Origin: Labia minor
Taxonomy: Eukaryota; Arthropoda; Insecta; Dermaptera; Spongiphoridae
Reading direction: 5' to 3'
Assembly: GCA_963082975.1 (NCBI GenBank)
Contig: OY720350.1
Coordinates: 52,344,734 to 52,408,733, forward strand
Length of the DNA stretch: 64,000 nucleotides
Below the pieces are notes generated by a model that ran no database searches, was not told the origin of the DNA, and was given only the letters and a program-made list of their open reading frames with translations. Of the stretch, positions 1-22,479 are shown in pieces. Both the position numbers and the translations under genes were made by a program. The number at the start of each line of letters is the position of its first letter. Positions within the stretch are counted from its first letter, which is position 1.

Positions 1-2651
1 TCTTTATTGTAAATGATCTTTTCAGATTTTATACTGGCTATTAATTAAAAATAAAAACAAAAAACAAATCTAGATCAAAAAATTTTACAAACGGTTTAGT
101 CCTTTTTATGATTTCTCGGCTAATTCTGCAGTAAGAGAATGCATTCTTCCGAAGATTTACGTAAATTCTTATTCTTTCTTGATGTTTTCTTGCATATTGT
201 TTTTTCTTAAATTGGCCACTAATTCTATGTTCAAGTCTCTATGTTACGTACATTTCACTCAACTCAGACTATGCTTCTATGAATTTTGGTGTTAGATAGT
301 TTTTCCCACAATTGTGCTTATGGGTCTTAATATTTGCATTTAAATCATGATTTTGTTTTCAATTTCCAATTTTGAATATTTGCCCATTAGCCATTGATTA
401 TTTTACTAATTTTTCTTGTCTTCTCATATTGAAAAATAATTAAGACAATTCTATTTTGTTTTTTTCGTTATATCATTCACACATTTCTAATCATCTAATT
501 CTTATTGTACTCTAATTATATTGCCCTCCCTTCTCTTCACCGAACATCCAACAATATTTTTGATATAGGAATTGGTGGCATTATATGGCAAACATACAAA
601 GATCGCACCTCGTCAAGTTCATTTAGATATTTAAGAATAAATAAAAATAATTCAAAATCATTCTGAGAAAGCTGGCAAAATGGAGATTTATTCCATTCTT
701 ATTCTTTTTTCTTTTTGAAAAATTTAAATCATTTCATAAGTTAAATAATTTATCTCATAAAAATTTAAATATAATATTTTCTTCTAAATCTTTTAAATAT
801 ATTATTTATTTTAGAAAATTCTGAAGAGGGGAAAGGGGCAATATAATTATAATTTTGTTATTCTCTCTCTCTATTCAAATTATAATTATTTTAATGAATT
901 AATAAAATTTTCCTGGGAATACATGTGAACCTTTATTTTTTCCAAATAATTTTAATAGGAAAAATACCAAAAAAAAAAAATTGACAAATAAAATTAAAAT
1001 TAGATTTTAAATAAAAAATTTGATATTTTATTTTTGAAAAGAAATTTAATATATATAAACATCTATTAAATATATTTATTTTCTCTCTCTCTCTCTCTCT
1101 CTTTGTCTAATGTTTTATTCAATTTAGTTATTTTGTTTCATTTTATTTAATAAAATCTCTCTTTTGAAATATTTTTTTTTTTAAAGAATTCTTTAAACTT
1201 GTACTATTTCATTCCAATTACAATAATATTCCAATTATAGGTTATTTGAAAAATAATGAACTATCTATTCTTTTAAAACATTAAAATACAAAAATTATTT
1301 AATATTTCTGTTTTATCATTTATTTTATTTGAGTTAATTTAATAATAACCATTTATTTTGTTATATATACTAAAATTTAGATAGAAATGCTTTAATTTAG
1401 TGAAATAATTATGTATTCTATTAAATTAAATTATTCCTAATAATATTATCAAGATAACTCTGAAGATTATCATTCCTCCCTTCTTCCTGTGCTCATTTTA
1501 TATTCGTCTTCTTACCACCTCCATCTTTTCAAATTTCATATTTAAACTTCATCATTTTTATGGTTCTTTTCTGATCAATATAATGTGATTTTTCTTTTTT
1601 GTTAAAATTAAAGAAATTAATTTATTTATATTAATGAATAATAATAAACACATTTCATTTAGTGAAATTTAATTAATTTATTTATTTTTATGATCTGAAT
1701 ATTTTTTTTTTTTATTAATTATTTGTGACAATTTGAAATATTATATTTTTATTTTAAATTTTAGAATTTAATAAATTATTTCATTTTTTTAATTTTTAAT
1801 TTTTTTGGTTATCCGATGTCAGGGACAAAAGGTGAATGTTGAAAAGATGATTGGATTGCTTCGAAACTTGTTTTTTTTTTTTATTATTATTTAATTCGTC
1901 GACGAAAGCCATTTGGGTCAAAATTTTTATTCATTTCCATATTCCTTTTAAAGTAAAAGGGAGAATGGGCTGTTATATGAGAAAGCAACCGGCTTCCCAC
2001 TCATCATCACTAATCATTGACCTCACCATATTATCTCCCAAGAAAAAAAAAAAAAAAATAAAACATTCACCCATCCCCATTCAAGGTTAACTTTGTTAAC
2101 TTTTCAGAAAAATATTTTATAGATTTTTTTTTCTTTTATAAATACATACTTTCGCTTTGGTCTAAATTGTGATTTTGAAAATACAAATCATTTGTTAATC
2201 GTGATATAGTTTTCTAAGTATTTTTTTTATATATATTAAAAAAAAAATATATAAATTTATTAAATCCAAGCCTTTTTCTTAAATTGCATAATTGCCTGTG
2301 AAAACCTCGCCTTTGTTAGTAATTTTATTTTTAAGAAATCTAAATTATCATAATTAGCTTAAAAATGCCTCCTATTCTATTAGTAGAATATTAAAAAAAA
2401 ATATATATTTTTCAAATATAAGAATATTTCAATTTTTAAAAAAAGTAAAATTTATCAATAAATAAATTATTCTAAAAAACATATAAAATCCTATTTTTTC
2501 CTATATCATATAATTAAATTACATAAAAACATTCATTAATTAATGTTTTTATACACTTATATTTAAATATTCATAAATATCAAATAAAAAATATTACAAT
2601 ATTAATATTCTCAAAAATTAATGTTTTTTTTATTTTATCAACATATATATA
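1..2651. other. A+T-rich sequence, no gene seen
   Basis: The stretch is low-complexity A+T-rich DNA with a (TC)n tract at about 1082-1102 and A or T runs throughout. The short open frame at 1851-2090 is largely encoded by poly-T and poly-A tracts and is not credible as a gene. I see no element ends here. Confidence 0.6.
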
Positions 2652-3155
2652 TGTGGGAATGGAGCCTTTTGGCTCATCACCGTCCGAATCAGCAAACGCC
2701 TGGCGCATCTTACTGCCTCAATGTCTGCCATTCTCAACCACAATATCATCGGAGTTGGTACTTCCTCTCAACGCCGCTCCAAGCAGCGAACGCCCCAGAC
2801 GCCGTCGCCGCCTCCCCACCATGCGCTACCATCACCGTCGCCGCCATTCTCCCACTCCACGCCACCGACCAATAGCAACCGAGTTCCAGCTGTTTGGACT
2901 TCCTTTTAAAAGGGACACCGGCACGATTCGAGTTTAGTATATAGTCAGATTTCAGTCAGTTTACAGTTAAGAGTTTATTCAGTCTTTTGTACATCGCCAG
3001 AAGTATTCAAGAAACGAAGAAGTTACGATTTCATTTATCTTTACACTGTATTTTTATCTTGTTCATCTTTATTCAATAAAACGATATTTTTGCAACCATT
3101 TAAACAAAACAGATATTTTTTGCTAAACAACCCCTAGACAACGAAATTCCCTACA
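2652..3155 (+). repeat. 5' LTR
   Basis: This 504-bp repeat has TG and CA ends. It is far richer in G+C than its surroundings over its first ~280 bp. A TATA-like TTTAAAA lies at about 2905-2911, arthropod initiator-like TCAGT motifs lie near 2952-2960, and AATAAA lies at 3075-3080. U3 is therefore roughly 2652-2940 and R/U5 follows. U3 carries an open frame encoding an Arg/His-rich peptide, which in the 3' copy is fused to the internal ORF. Confidence 0.92.
2905..2911 (+). promoter_or_regulatory. TATA-like box of the 5' LTR promoter
   Basis: TTTAAAA lies inside a CCTTTTAAAAGG palindrome, about 25-50 bp upstream of TCAGT initiator-like motifs. The same motif is at 5227-5233 in the 3' LTR, where it overlaps the end of the coding frame. 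The promoter role is inferred from position only. Confidence 0.55.
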
Positions 3156-3158
3156 AAT

Positions 3159-3176
3159 TGGAGGCTCAGTCCGTGA
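3159..3176 (+). other. Primer-binding-site-like sequence
   Basis: TGGAGGCTCAGTCCGTGA starts three bases after the 5' LTR, where a tRNA 3' end would prime minus-strand synthesis. The leading TGG pairs with a tRNA CCA end, and TGGAGG would fit some Gln or Ala tRNAs. The rest does not match a tRNA I can name. Confidence 0.55.
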
Positions 3177-3222
3177 TTGAAAACAACTCGTTTATCGTTC
3201 GGGCAAAAGAAGATTCCTAGAC

Positions 3223-3478
3223 TTGTTCACTCTCAAGATTTTATGTGAATAATCTTCAAGCAAAGATACAAGATTCAAGATTCAAGTCTTATTCACGTTC
3301 AAGATTTTTGTGAATAATTCTAAAGAAAAGATACAAGATTCAAGATTGAAGATTTATTTACTCTCAAGATTTTTGTGAATAATTGTCAAGGAAAAGATAC
3401 AAGATTTAAGATTGAAAACTTATTCACTTTCAAGATTTTTTTGTGAATAATCAGCAAGAAAGAAAATACAAGATTTAA
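3223..3478 (+). repeat. Four-unit tandem repeat in the leader of the LTR element
   Basis: Four imperfect units of 64-66 bp lie between the primer-binding-like site and the ORF, beginning near 3227, 3291, 3356 and 3422. Each has the pattern TTCAC, then (T)CAAGATTTT, then GTGAA, so each can fold into a short hairpin with a CAAGATTTT-type loop. The third unit has a changed first arm. Each unit is followed by several AAGAT(A/T)CAAGAT repeats. The position matches that of a retroelement leader or packaging region; that role is inference. Confidence 0.8.
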
Positions 3479-3513
3479 TACAGTAAAGATTAAAGAAATA
3501 AAAATATATTAAG

Positions 3514-5259
3514 ATGTTGAATTTGTTTTTTTTTCCAAAAATCGCAAAAAACATCAATGAGGCCAAACCATATGAATTGAAAGGATTAAAAACGATAATA
3601 ACGGGTGACGCAACATGCCGCCTCAGTAGAAAAACCCTACTCAACTTTGAAGGGTTCAACTTTGTTGAAGGTTCTGAGGAATACGAAAAGAAAAATGAAG
3701 AATTAAAGGAAAAACTTACCAGTAAGCAACTACGTCGAACATCTAATATACTCAATCTTCCTGAGCAAGACAGCGACGAACTAATCAGAGGTAACATTCT
3801 ATCTTGGTTATGTACACTGGACGAAGATGATGAAGAAGAAGAAAAAGAAGAGACTGATAAGAAAGAATCTAATAAAAAAGAAGAGACTGAAAAGAAAGAA
3901 TCTAATAAAAAAGAAGAGACTGATAAGAAAGAATCTGATAAAAAAGAAGATACTGAAAAGAAAGAATCTGATAAAAAAGAAGATACTGAAAAGAAAGAAT
4001 CTGATGAAAAAGAAGATACTGAAAAGAAAGAATCTGATAAAAAAGAAGATACTGAAAAGAAAGAATCTAATAAAAAAGAAAAAACTCAAAAGAAAGAATC
4101 GGAGAAAATAGAAGAGACTGAAAAGAAAGAATCTATTAAAAAAGAAAAAACTGGAAAGAAAGAATCGGAGAAAATAGAAGAGACTGAGAAGAAAGAATCT
4201 AATAAAAAAGAAAAAACTCAAAAGAAAGAATCGGAGAAAATAGAAGAGACTGATAAGAAAGAATCTGATAAAAAAGAAGAGACTGAAAAGAAAGAATCTA
4301 ATAAAAAAGGAGAGATTGAAAAAGAGGAAGTCAAAGAAGAAAAGAATGAAGTTAAAGAATCTCTAACGACTGATAATGAAAAAAAGACCGAAAGTGAAGT
4401 TAATGAAGAGGATAAAGTAAATGACGATGAATCAATGGAAGTTGATAAGGATGAAAGCACTTCAGAAGATCGAAATAAAACGATCCGTGAAGAAGAGATT
4501 GATCCCAATGATAAAATGTTTTATCTTGATGAAACAATGCCTGAAAGTGAAGATGGTGAGAAAGACAGTGAAGAAGATGACGTTACTAATTTAAAATTCG
4601 CCTGGAAAGTTTTAAAATTGGCAAAAGTGATTTATGAAAAACAAGCAAATGAAGGAAATAAAGAAACAAAATTAAATTTAGAAAATGTTTTTTTAAAATT
4701 AGACGAAATTAAAGAAGAAAGTTCTAACGATAATGATAAAACACAAACTGCAAGTAAAGTTGAAACTGAGGATAGTGTTTTAAATAAAGAAAATGAAGAT
4801 TTTAATGTGGATTTAAATTTAGAAACAGGGATAAATGATTTATCCAAATCACAAGATATACTATTTTACGTGAAGAAAAAAATCGATAAATATCGAAAAA
4901 CGAAGGCGAAGTGGAGAGATAAGGAAAAGAAGATTAACGTATTCGAGGCCGAATACATCGCAGGACGGCCGAATGTGGGAATGGAGCCTTTTGGCTCATC
5001 ACCGTCCGAATCAGCAAACGCCTGGCGCATCTTACTGCCTCAATGTCTGCCATTCTCAACCACAATATCATCGGAGTTGGTACTTCCTCTCAACGCCGCT
5101 CCAAGCAGCGAACGCCCCAGACGCCGTCGCCGCCTCCCCACCATGCGCTACCATCACCGTCGCCGCCATTCTCCCACTCCACGCCACCGACCAATAGCAA
5201 CCGAGTTCCAGCTGTTTGGACTTCCTTTTAAAAGGGACACCGGCACGATTCGAGTTTAG
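3514..5259 (+). CDS. DEK-like/NASP-like chimeric protein encoded by an LTR element
   Basis: This is an intron-free frame of 581 codons. The ATG at 3514 has a purine at -3 (AAGATGT) and is the first ATG after the leader repeats in this frame. Residues ~20-105 resemble the SAP-type DNA-binding region of DEK: the spacing GF-x-F-x2-GS-x2-Y-x-KK-x-E-x-LK at ~47-65, followed by a helix ending ILSWL at ~94-99. Residues 112-265 are fourteen 11-residue units such as EETEKKESNKK. An acidic stretch follows. At ~359-408, NLKFAWKVLKLAKVIYEKQ and, after a gap, FLKLDEI resemble the NASP segment whose TPR helices bind histones. Residues 488-581 are encoded by the 3' LTR and include RRRRR and HHRRRH. DEK and NASP are both nuclear histone chaperones. 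Family assignments come from motif memory, DEK stronger than NASP. No gag or pol motif was seen. Whether protein is made is unknown. Confidence 0.8.
   Translation: MLNLFFFPKIAKNINEAKPYELKGLKTIITGDATCRLSRKTLLNFEGFNFVEGSEEYEKKNEELKEKLTSKQLRRTSNILNLPEQDSDELIRGNILSWLCTLDEDDEEEEKEETDKKESNKKEETEKKESNKKEETDKKESDKKEDTEKKESDKKEDTEKKESDEKEDTEKKESDKKEDTEKKESNKKEKTQKKESEKIEETEKKESIKKEKTGKKESEKIEETEKKESNKKEKTQKKESEKIEETDKKESDKKEETEKKESNKKGEIEKEEVKEEKNEVKESLTTDNEKKTESEVNEEDKVNDDESMEVDKDESTSEDRNKTIREEEIDPNDKMFYLDETMPESEDGEKDSEEDDVTNLKFAWKVLKLAKVIYEKQANEGNKETKLNLENVFLKLDEIKEESSNDNDKTQTASKVETEDSVLNKENEDFNVDLNLETGINDLSKSQDILFYVKKKIDKYRKTKAKWRDKEKKINVFEAEYIAGRPNVGMEPFGSSPSESANAWRILLPQCLPFSTTISSELVLPLNAAPSSERPRRRRRLPTMRYHHRRRHSPTPRHRPIATEFQLFGLPFKRDTGTIRV
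3847..4308 (+). repeat. 33-bp coding minisatellite (14 units)
   Basis: Fourteen in-frame 33-bp units encode 11-residue Lys/Glu-rich repeats. The varying positions are EET/EDT/EKT, then D/E/Q/G, KKES, and N/D/E/I followed by KK, EK or KI. Units 8-12 also show a 66-bp higher-order period in which EKT-type and EET-type units alternate, indicating unequal exchange or slippage. The region is charged and probably a long helix or disordered linker. Confidence 0.9.
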
Positions 5260-5477
5260 TATATAGTCAGATTTCAGTCAGTTTACAGTTAAGAGTTTAT
5301 TCAGTCTTTTGTACATCGCCAGAAGTATTCAAGAAACGAAGAAGTTACGATTTCATTTATCTTTACACTGTATTTTTATCTTGTTCATCTTTATTCAATA
5401 AAACGATATTTTTGCAACCATTTAAACAAAACAGATATTTTTTGCTAAACAACCCCTAGACAACGAAATTCCCTACA
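4974..5477 (+). repeat. 3' LTR
   Basis: This is a 504-bp copy of the 5' LTR with no difference found by eye. AATAAA is at 5397-5402 and would serve as the poly(A) signal. The first 286 bp are read in frame as the C-terminal tail of the internal protein, with stop TAG at 5257-5259. Confidence 0.92.
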
Positions 5478-6739
5478 TATATCTATATATATTACATACA
5501 TATAGATATAAAATTTTGTTTTTATTAATTAAAAAAAAATATATTTCAATACATTATGTTATTTTTTTCTCATAAATATCCTTGAATTAAATTATGATTT
5601 CTATTATATATATATATGCTATTTTTTATTTGTCAAATTATATTAATTTAAAATAATGGAGTAGATAAAAAAAAAATACATAAAAAAATGATAATATTAG
5701 AAAGAAATTAAAATAATAATTTAATGTTTTTAGATTTGAAATTATTTATTATATAATTCTGCACCAATATTAATTAAGAGTATTTATTTAGGATTATTAG
5801 TAGAGGATTGTGTGTGTGTGAATAGTAAATTGGAAAAAAAAACATAAGTAATCATAATTTATGCTATTGATCTTTTATCAATTATTTATAAAAATATTTA
5901 ATAATTTATCATAATACATATTTTAAATTCTAAAATAAAAATGGTGTACCTATTAATTAACTTTGATAAATTTTAATAAAAATTTTGAAATCAAATGACT
6001 AACAACAAAATGTTTTTGTAACATGATTGCTTGCTCTGGAGCCCTAAATAATAATTTGTACTTCATTTATTTAAAAAAAATTTAGGAATTAATTATAAAT
6101 TATGAAATATTCGATAATATTTTTTACCTAAAAAATTACAAGTTGTCATAACCATCAAAATTAATTAAGTCTGATTTAAATTGGGCATAAAAATTGAATA
6201 ATAAAATGAATAAAAAAAATGCTCTGATTACTATGCTTGGCATATTTTCAAGGTACCTACACTTCTTTATTAAATGAACATTAAACAATTTCTAAAACAA
6301 ATTTTCTATGTCTAATCGTGTGACAAAAAATAAAGCTGTGATCTACGTACCTAGACGTCGAGAGTTAAAACTTCACCCAGTTAAAAAAAAAACAATTTAA
6401 AAATTTATCTATTAAATTAAAAATAAATTAATAATGAAATTATAATAAAATATGTACTATTACTAAAATGTGCTTAGATTTAATTTGCCATGTATTTCTT
6501 TCTATTACACAATGGTTCTCATTTTTGGTAATTTATGCTTTTAATGATTACAATAATAGATAGTTGTTATGTGGATAATTCTAATTAAGAATATTTACAT
6601 AAAATCGTCATGTTGATTTGGAAGTATATTTTATTTTTAATTTTCTAATATATATTTTCTTTAATACAAAGTTGGATGATATTTTCTTCCCTTCCATATA
6701 GTAGAAAATTTAAAGGGATTTTTTTTATGATAAAAAGCA
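5478..6739. other. A+T-rich sequence, no gene seen
   Basis: It starts with the (TA)-rich flank of the LTR element and continues as unique A+T-rich DNA with many stops in all frames. No repeat family of the window was recognised in it. Confidence 0.6.
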
Positions 6740-20712: not shown

Positions 20713-21179
20713 TGTACTGATTTGAAAAGTGACATTGTGACTTAGTGAATTCATATTTATATTATATATATAAATATATTTCTCCCATAAATAATTCTTC
20801 AAATGTATGATTTATTTTGTTTTTGCTACATATATGAATATTAATTTCATTGGTTTGTTTAATTATAGTCTTGGATGGAAAATTTCTATGAATCCAAAAT
20901 CACGAAAGATTTATCATCAAGAAAGATCATGAAAAAAAGATTAAGATATAAAATTCTCTTGAAAAATCAAAGGATAAATATCTAGGAATAAAAAAATTCT
21001 AGGAATAAAGTATACGTGTGTTTCAAAATAATATAATTATAAACAGACATTGAAATTTTATTTTCAAATAAATAAAAGAATTTTATTTTTCTACTATTGA
21101 TTATTAATTAATAAGGAATTAAGACAGGAAAATTGTTTCAAAATCTTTGTTTTTTTTTTGTTTTTTTTTGGGCATTTAA
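19652..21179. other. A+T-rich sequence, no gene seen
   Basis: Includes a second (AT)n tract at about 20680-20709. The small open frame crossing it encodes an Ile-Tyr run from the microsatellite and is not a gene. Confidence 0.6.
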
Positions 21180-21820
21180 TTTATTTGCTAAAATTTGGCT
21201 GAACGAGAAAGCAACCTAGCGTCTAGTTCGAAGAACTGGTTGAACTCTTGACCTTAGCGATGCCCCACCTGAGAGAGAGCTGGGCTTATCGTTTGAATGA
21301 TGCCTGGATGGGCTGCTGGTCCATTGTCCCGGACGGACGGGTTCCACCCTTGTTTGGACTTGATTTCTCTCTTTCTCTCTCTCCCTTCCTCTTACTAAGG
21401 CGTGTTGTTGTTGTTCTTCTTTTTCTTCTTCTTCTACTTCTTCTCCTGCTGCTGCTGCTGTTGTTGTTGTTGCTGCTGCTGCTGCTGCTTGCTTATTGCT
21501 CGTTGTTGGCCGCTTGTGGCGAATGTTATTTTCGCCACTTCCTCGACGGTCCTCTTCGCACAGTGGCTGCTGCTGCGCCGTCAAGGCCACATTCCACTCC
21601 TGTGTCAATGGCTTTGGCCAGGGTCGGGAAATGCAGCGCAGCTCAGCCTGGACCTTACCCTTACCCCATACCCTTCCATCGCCTTTGCTGTTGTCGATGT
21701 CTCGCGGCCTCCAGTCTCCCGCCAAATACTCAGTCAAGAAACCTCGGGTGGGTTGTCCAATGATCATCGGGAAAGGAGAGGAGAGGCGGGAGGATGAGGA
21801 AAAGGGGAATGGGGGGGGGG
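21180..21820. other. Large G+C-rich island with CTT, CTG and GTT repeats
   Basis: About 640 bp clearly richer in G+C than the rest of the window, with sharp edges. The centre (21400-21490) is (CTT)n, (CTG)n and (GTT)n. Frames are open on both strands, partly because triplet repeats suppress stops. The minus-strand frame 21216-21767 would read poly-Ala, poly-Thr and poly-Glu, like insect regulatory proteins, but has no recognisable domain. No good splice sites frame it. It could be an exon, a promoter or a large enhancer. Confidence 0.4.
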
Positions 21821-21829
21821 GTGAATAAG

Positions 21830-22479
21830 AAACAATTTAACTCACCATACACTCTACTTCTTTCAATTACGTTTTAATTTACTTCGTCAGTACAAAGATT
21901 GAATATTCAGAAACTTCCTTTTGTGTTCCAGACACAACTTTGTCAATTATATTTCATTTTCAAAAACACACACACACACACACACACCAAGATTCAACTC
22001 ATTTCCAATAAATCGATGGATAGGAATTTTCCATTTTATTTAATTAAAAGAAAAAAAGTTTATATTGATTTAAATTAATTATTCTTATTTTTAATTCTTT
22101 TACATCGAATTGTTTAGAAACAAACTCAAGCTTCCCCATTATCATTATATTAATTAATAATTTTAATGTATACATATTAAATGAATGAATTTTACACATT
22201 TAATTCCTTTTTGATATTAAAAAAAGAAGTTTATATTATATATATGATCAATTTCTTAATAAATATCTAACGTACTTTTAAATTATTCATTTATTAATAT
22301 TTTAAAATTTTTATTAAAACAAATTCATAAATTAAATATGAATGTCATACCATTTATTTAAATTATATATTATATTAGTATTTTTATTTTTTTATTACCA
22401 AACGTATTAAATATGTAAGTGCAAACCAGATTAATGTTATTATCGTATAAATAGTCAATAATTTTATTTGTCAGTTTGA
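21830..22479. other. A+T-rich sequence with a (CA)n tract
   Basis: A (CA)n microsatellite at about 21966-21987 is the only distinct feature. Confidence 0.6.

Follow-up and report, generated by a model that had tools for sequence, protein, structure and literature searches.

How does a retrotransposon without recognisable gag or pol genes come to encode a protein that resembles two nuclear histone chaperones, DEK and NASP? The question is raised by an element at positions 2652 to 5477 of a 64,000-nucleotide stretch of the Labia minor (Dermaptera) genome (assembly GCA_963082975.1, contig OY720350.1, positions 52,344,734 to 52,408,733 of the forward strand), here called the window. A preliminary description of this DNA, made from the sequence alone, proposed that a non-autonomous long terminal repeat (LTR) element had transduced both host genes, or a host chimera of the two. 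In the computational analysis reported here, we conclude with a probability of roughly 0.85 that it is a Gypsy-type LTR retrotransposon which depends on a helper and has picked up part of the host NASP gene. The element is gag-onc-like and comparable to maize Bs1. It is the smaller form of its family, in which the acidic stretch of gag is joined straight to NASP, and capsid, zinc knuckles and protease are missing; LTRs, leader, primer site and open frame are retained. A longer form with the same LTR and leader (the adjoining loci L050 and L053) has Gag and protease, followed by NASP where the remainder of pol would otherwise stand.

Structure of the window element

The direct repeats of 504 bp at 2652-3155 and 4974-5477 are 100% alike and have the ends TGTGGG...CCCTACA. 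The architecture given in the preliminary description (identical 504-bp LTRs, TG/CA ends, a TGG at the start of the primer site and one intron-free frame) was confirmed throughout. The window element, copy L001 of the family, has the following features.

2648..2651 (left copy) and 5478-5481 (right copy), no strand: target-site duplication TATA
2652..3155, + strand: 5' LTR, 504 bp, TGTGGG...CCCTACA, from the direct-repeat comparison
3156..3513, + strand: untranslated leader with tandem repeats of about 66 nt (about 3219-3490), differing by 2.8% from the gag-bearing L050
3159..3176, + strand: primer-binding site, starting with TGG at 3159, presumably a tRNA-Pro-type variant
3514..5259, + strand: single intron-free open frame of 581 aa, a GagN-NASP fusion that runs into the 3' LTR
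3553..3807, + strand: DEK-like (SAP-region) domain, the Gag N-terminal domain of the element family
3808..3850, + strand: acidic Asp/Glu stretch, the junction of gag with NASP-derived repeat sequence
3841..4310, + strand: EETEKKES-type array of 33-nt repeats, with 14 KKES units in the window copy and 6-14 among copies
4224..4710, + strand: host NASP-derived coding piece, from the acidic region to the first 10 SHNi-TPR residues, about 92% identical in DNA to the host gene
4711..4973, + strand: non-NASP coding tail, 99.3% identical in the gag-protease-NASP copy L053
4974..5477, + strand: 3' LTR, identical to the 5' LTR

About 95 residues of the 581-aa frame fall inside the 3' LTR. The frame had been described as lacking any gag or pol motif, and a Pfam scan of the 581 aa found neither; no TPR was found above the cut-off. 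DEK_C was likewise unmatched by Pfam in the frame of the element, and none of the four DEK_C matches in the genome lies at the copies examined. We interpret the EETEKKES-type array as a lengthened version of the KKES repeat of host NASP, which is shorter. The coding tail is possibly the end of pol; a search for its homologues among PDB sequences gave nothing below E=0.24. The idea of a structured leader RNA was rejected (z-score 0.27), and a search of viral contigs gave no match.

The NASP piece and the host NASP gene

A search of PDB sequences with the residues from about 268 onwards returned four matches, three of them named NASP (best E=9.7e-6), the fourth being the plant TPR-like protein 7w5m (E=1.9e-4), which we take to be a NASP relative. 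The sole SHNi-TPR locus found in the genome (C1:91120670, E=1.3e-13; both candidates scored) is host NASP, a single intron-free frame of 707 aa (L039, C1:91119180-91121300) with TPR matches and long Lys/Glu repeats. Across the 131 codons that run from EKEEVKE to LDEI, the NASP piece of the window element is 91.9% identical in DNA to this gene. Among the 40 copies scored, the same comparison covers only the 7 with the anchor string, which fall into four haplotypes and give 91.9-93.1% DNA identity over 130-131 codons; a shorter NASP stretch, compared in 39 hits (11 haplotypes), is 83-89% identical to the host in protein. The haplotype closest to the host is that of L012, L013 and others. Judged from these alignments, the NASP part is a true host-gene capture, and the proposal that a non-autonomous element had transduced two host genes holds for NASP, at the DNA level and in many copies. 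It is not supported for DEK, as set out below.

The captured piece holds the acidic region and ends 10 residues into the 37-residue SHNi-TPR match. The histone-chaperone domain of NASP is therefore not complete, and the presence of an intact histone-binding domain is not supported.

Four copies (L012, L013, L014 and L016) share a NASP haplotype with a local patch nearer to host NASP (GDVPNLNLAWEV), which may represent the ancestral state or a later exchange with host RNA.

The DEK-like domain and Gag

The first 104 residues of the frame gave DEK as the top three matches among PDB sequences (2jx3, E=1.9e-4), the next match having E=0.15, and none of 2000 shuffles equalled the DEK alignment score, for host DEK and for human DEK alike. 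The DEK-like and NASP-like resemblances first noticed from the sequence alone both exceed chance. Host DEK was found at C1:104779199 (L041). Two further loci were rejected in its favour: from its sequence, L040 is probably a slingshot-type phosphatase and L042 probably a SWIB-type gene with DEK_C.

The likeness to host DEK is distant, at about 30% identity (18 of 61 aligned columns) and an alignment score of 70 for the element domain against 175 for host versus human DEK. The DNA matches listed included none to the SAP exon of host DEK and fell mostly on its acidic exon and on AT-rich stretches. Pfam matched neither SAP nor DEK on the host's own DEK exon, so its silence on the DEK-like part of the element says little. 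A profile search that gave DEK at E=7.7e-13 already included host DEK, so we do not treat it as independent evidence, and the predicted structure of the domain was unusable (mean pLDDT, the predicted local confidence score, 46.7 alone and 58.2 with three sequences).

The longer relatives point to the source of the domain. The pattern of an LTR end with the canonical primer site TGGGGGCTCGTCCGGGATT occurs at 14 places in the genome. One of them, L052, is another short GagN-NASP copy; another, L050, has the LTR and leader of the window element and, in addition, a Gag that runs from the DEK-like domain through an acidic stretch and a part resembling capsid (Retrotrans_gag, E=5.2e-5; 23.8 bits, just short of the 24.1-bit cut-off) to two CCHC knuckles recognised by eye (zf-CCHC, E=0.0012, slightly below the Pfam cut-off). 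The L050 Gag domain alone again retrieved DEK from PDB sequences (E=1.3e-4). In the adjoining L053 there follow, in this order, a retroviral protease (PF00077, E=5.5e-8), a NASP stretch running from KTEKIDTKEAK to LDEI, the tail and the 3' LTR. What was read of a Ty3/Gypsy gene order in these relatives is the Gag and zinc-knuckle part, slightly below the cut-offs, and the protease. On this arrangement, the DEK-like domain is the N-terminus of the family's own Gag, with only a distant relationship to host DEK, and not a second host capture in the element. The preliminary description had taken a match to a retroviral gag domain as grounds against its reading, and this applies in part: the DEK-like part does belong to a Gag, and the NASP part is host-derived. 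Searches with the DEK part, the NASP part and the L050 Gag (for Gag, the 8000 best candidates) gave no match in a public protein database from which animal proteins are apparently largely or wholly missing.

Copies and age of the family

A search of the 604-Mb genome yielded 132 candidate copies, of which the best 40 were scored and all 40 fetched. All 40 match the probe at full length (94-100%), and, being the best 40 of 132, they lean towards young copies. Two complete LTRs are present at 33 loci, and 26 of these pairs are identical; the pairs differ in total by 10 mismatches and 4 gap columns over 16,969 bp. This count omits L012 and L013, which lie in a tandem array, and L002, L007 and L022, which have no complete pair. 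Matching A/T-rich flanks of 4 bp, the target-site duplications, border 32 of the 33 pairs, with L018-L020 counted among the 32 though apparently one insertion. The frame is open to its usual end before the 3' LTR in 37 of 41 open reading frame hits, which represent the 40 distinct copies and one duplicate in L013, cut by the locus end; in L037 the frame reaches the LTR after a deletion, and in L009 and L033 it stops earlier. The element family is young, dispersed and multi-copy.

The three loci L018-L020 (C1:1957200-1996800) apparently hold one insertion with an ATAA duplication, in three copies of a duplicated flank. At L012 and L013 (C5:65616344-65623211), four element copies lie head to tail at a spacing of 2121 bp, apparently with common LTRs. 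Primer sites in L001-L038 comprise 34 of the form TGGAGGCTCAGTCCGTGATT, 3 canonical ones (TGGGGGCTCGTCCGGGATT) and 4 others, where the overlap of L012 and L013 may count one twice; the variation may reflect different tRNA primers or inherited mutation.

Longer forms and candidate helpers

A search with the L053 protease (best 150 of 166 candidates scored, 104 matches) found 23 places at 93-100% identity. NASP lies within 1.5 kb downstream in 17 of these 23 copies and is absent there in 6, and frames of 1398-1399 aa occur in exactly those 6 (e.g. C9:4142223 and C4:67104708), which are probably autonomous Gag-Pol copies and candidate helpers. In the next protease group, a distant lineage at 44-46% identity, NASP follows in 7 of 8 copies; it follows in 0 of 1 at 41%, 0 of 10 at 37-38% and 0 of the 62 other protease rows.

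The 5' part of the longer NASP piece was found at 57 places, one of them the host gene (76 of 76 candidates scored). Frames of at least 500 aa contain 50 of the 56 non-host places, and the matched part is stop-free in 54. All 56 are inferred to be retrotransposon copies, L050/L053 being the one that was read. For 33 of the 57 places, host gene included, the 42 best protease rows contain no accompanying protease. The 40 short copies and the 56 places have none in common within 5 kb, whereas 6 of the 14 places with the primer-site pattern have a 5' NASP place at a distance of 5 kb or less. Identity to the L053 NASP query is 85-91% at 32 of the 56 places and 64-77% at 8, against 75% for host NASP over residues 18-88. 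Five divergent NASP-bearing places at 64-65% (C1:38177179, C1:64159063, C1:96123991, C5:55248987 and C5:60496850) are possibly old lineages.

Selection and sequence divergence

Between L050 and the window element, the 94 codons compared in Gag-N have 7 nonsynonymous and 11 synonymous differences, giving a ratio of nonsynonymous to synonymous rates (dN/dS) of 0.15; the DEK-like domain is under constraint between these two sequences. For the NASP piece against the host gene, dN/dS is 0.91 over 250 codons (L053) and 0.60-1.09 in the short copies, values that show no protein-level constraint. Among haplotypes of recent copies, the corresponding polymorphism ratio (pN/pS) is 1.47 for the Gag-N part (10 haplotypes, 9 variable codons) and 0.76 from the NASP part onwards (19 haplotypes), and constraint is therefore not visible at this depth. 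A NASP piece alone would stay stop-free under neutrality with a chance of 0.09-0.22 at 32 changes. In the 5' alignment of L053 with host NASP all four gaps are multiples of three, as repeat units would likewise give; the well-aligned 3' part has gaps of 6 and 9 bases, also multiples of three. Divergence of the window element from L050/L053 differs among segments (LTR 5.2%, leader 2.8%, Gag-N 7.8%, NASP 2.8%, tail 0.7%), which suggests recombination among copies.

Other features of the window

Scans of the window for tRNA genes and Rfam families found none. A GC-rich island with long single-codon repeats lies at 21216-21836 (43% GC in 21001-22000), and the rest of the window is AT-rich.

Origin and possible role of the fusion

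The steps that could have produced the window element are a template switch in mixed particles that contained both element RNA and NASP mRNA, a deletion inside the element at Glu/Asp-coding runs that gag and NASP share, and transposition driven in trans by intact Gag-Pol copies, of which the six frames of 1398-1399 aa are the probable ones. Several observations weigh against this account. Host NASP is itself intron-free, and there is hence no intron loss by which RNA-mediated capture could be proven. The segment divergences argue for a mosaic history rather than one simple deletion. The gag and zinc-knuckle matches of L050 fall slightly below their cut-offs; the reverse transcriptase search (best 150 of 7052 candidates scored) listed none at the six candidate helpers, and their LTRs and primer site are unproven, none of the 14 canonical LTR-end/primer-site places being within 5 kb of them. 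A joint capture of DEK and NASP, or of a host chimera of both, draws on the fact that both resemblances are statistically real, but L050 has the DEK-like domain ahead of Gag, and 30% identity to host DEK against 92-93% DNA identity for NASP means that the two parts differ in age and source. We regard such a double capture as highly improbable, and the host chimera of the preliminary description is abandoned with it. Independent capture of NASP by two or more retrotransposon lineages would account for its presence in 7 of 8 copies of the lineage with 44-46% protease identity and for the 8 places that are as distant from the L053 query as the host gene is. It is nevertheless unlikely, as 32 of the 56 places are nearer to the query than the host gene, and NASP after the protease in both lineages fits a single capture followed by recombination between elements.

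Within the favoured account of a helper-dependent element with a transduced NASP piece, what the piece does is a separate matter. The chances are about even that it is an inert stuffer, captured by accident and spread by helper-recognised LTRs, leader and primer site in the manner of TRIM or LARD elements (terminal-repeat retrotransposons in miniature and large retrotransposon derivatives): the substitution pattern looks neutral, the repeat number varies from 6 to 14 units, and the 26 of 33 identical LTR pairs indicate a recent spread of many internal variants. The open frames at many divergent NASP-bearing places are harder to reconcile with a stuffer. These frames (50 of 56 of at least 500 aa, 54 stop-free, the lineage with 44-46% protease identity included), the gaps in multiples of three in both parts of the NASP alignment and the constraint on Gag-N speak for a Gag-N/NASP protein retained for a function of the element, which might tether particles or cDNA to chromatin or interfere with histone supply or silencing at new insertions. 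We consider this less likely than not, given the NASP dN/dS of 0.6-1.1 against the host, pN/pS of 0.76 and 1.47, the neutral chance of a stop-free piece, the truncated TPR fold and the ability of repeat-unit indels to preserve a frame without selection. The Gag N-terminal domain is most likely the part by which the fusion protein enters or attaches to particles or chromatin, with NASP forming a long charged tail; a functional NASP chaperone is improbable, as the TPR fold is truncated. A broader idea, that the clade adopted a chromatin-directed protein, in which an old DEK-like Gag domain and a histone-binding acidic NASP piece, passed between distant lineages, would steer or shield integration via histones, seems to us distinctly unlikely.

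Comparison with known systems

Acutely transforming retroviruses carry fusions of Gag with host proteins (gag-onc). The window element resembles them in joining a Gag N-terminus to a host coding piece, in the loss of pol and in helper-dependent spread, and differs in being an endogenous Gypsy-type retrotransposon in a host genome with no known oncogenic cargo. TRIM and LARD elements are non-autonomous LTR elements; like them, the window element is short, helper-dependent and retains LTRs and a primer site, but unlike them it retains a long coding frame.

In LTR-mediated retroposition, an mRNA in the particle and a switch at microsimilarity give an LTR-flanked chimeric cDNA (PMC5408686); the mechanism proposed here is the same, but the products described there are retrocopies and here form a replicating family. 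The nearest described case is maize Bs1, an LTR element with pieces of three genes, for a membrane ATPase, a xylan endohydrolase and a glucanase (PMC13317346). In both elements, fragments of cellular genes were taken up and became part of a hybrid frame; Bs1 has three genes in a plant, against one chromatin gene behind a DEK-like Gag domain here. A captured P450-like fragment in a TRIM is also reported (PMC13317346). A further difference from Bs1 is that at least 40 young copies are present here, with 56 further places that carry a longer NASP piece.

Among the titles and abstract starts listed in searches of open-licence PMC papers, none indicates a NASP-bearing or DEK-Gag retrotransposon, a scope that leaves most subscription papers outside. 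The kind of element is already known; within that scope the cargo, the DEK-like domain of Gag, the copy-number success and the second lineage are new. Such an N-terminal domain in a Gag points to chromatin binding as a possible route for particles. The gag-onc architecture here occurs in an endogenous retrotransposon, and one genome shows probable autonomous Gag-Pol, gag-protease-NASP and gag-N-NASP forms, a system suited to studying the entry of host genes into retroelements, the movement of cargo from one lineage to another and the question of whether a cargo is selected or a stuffer.

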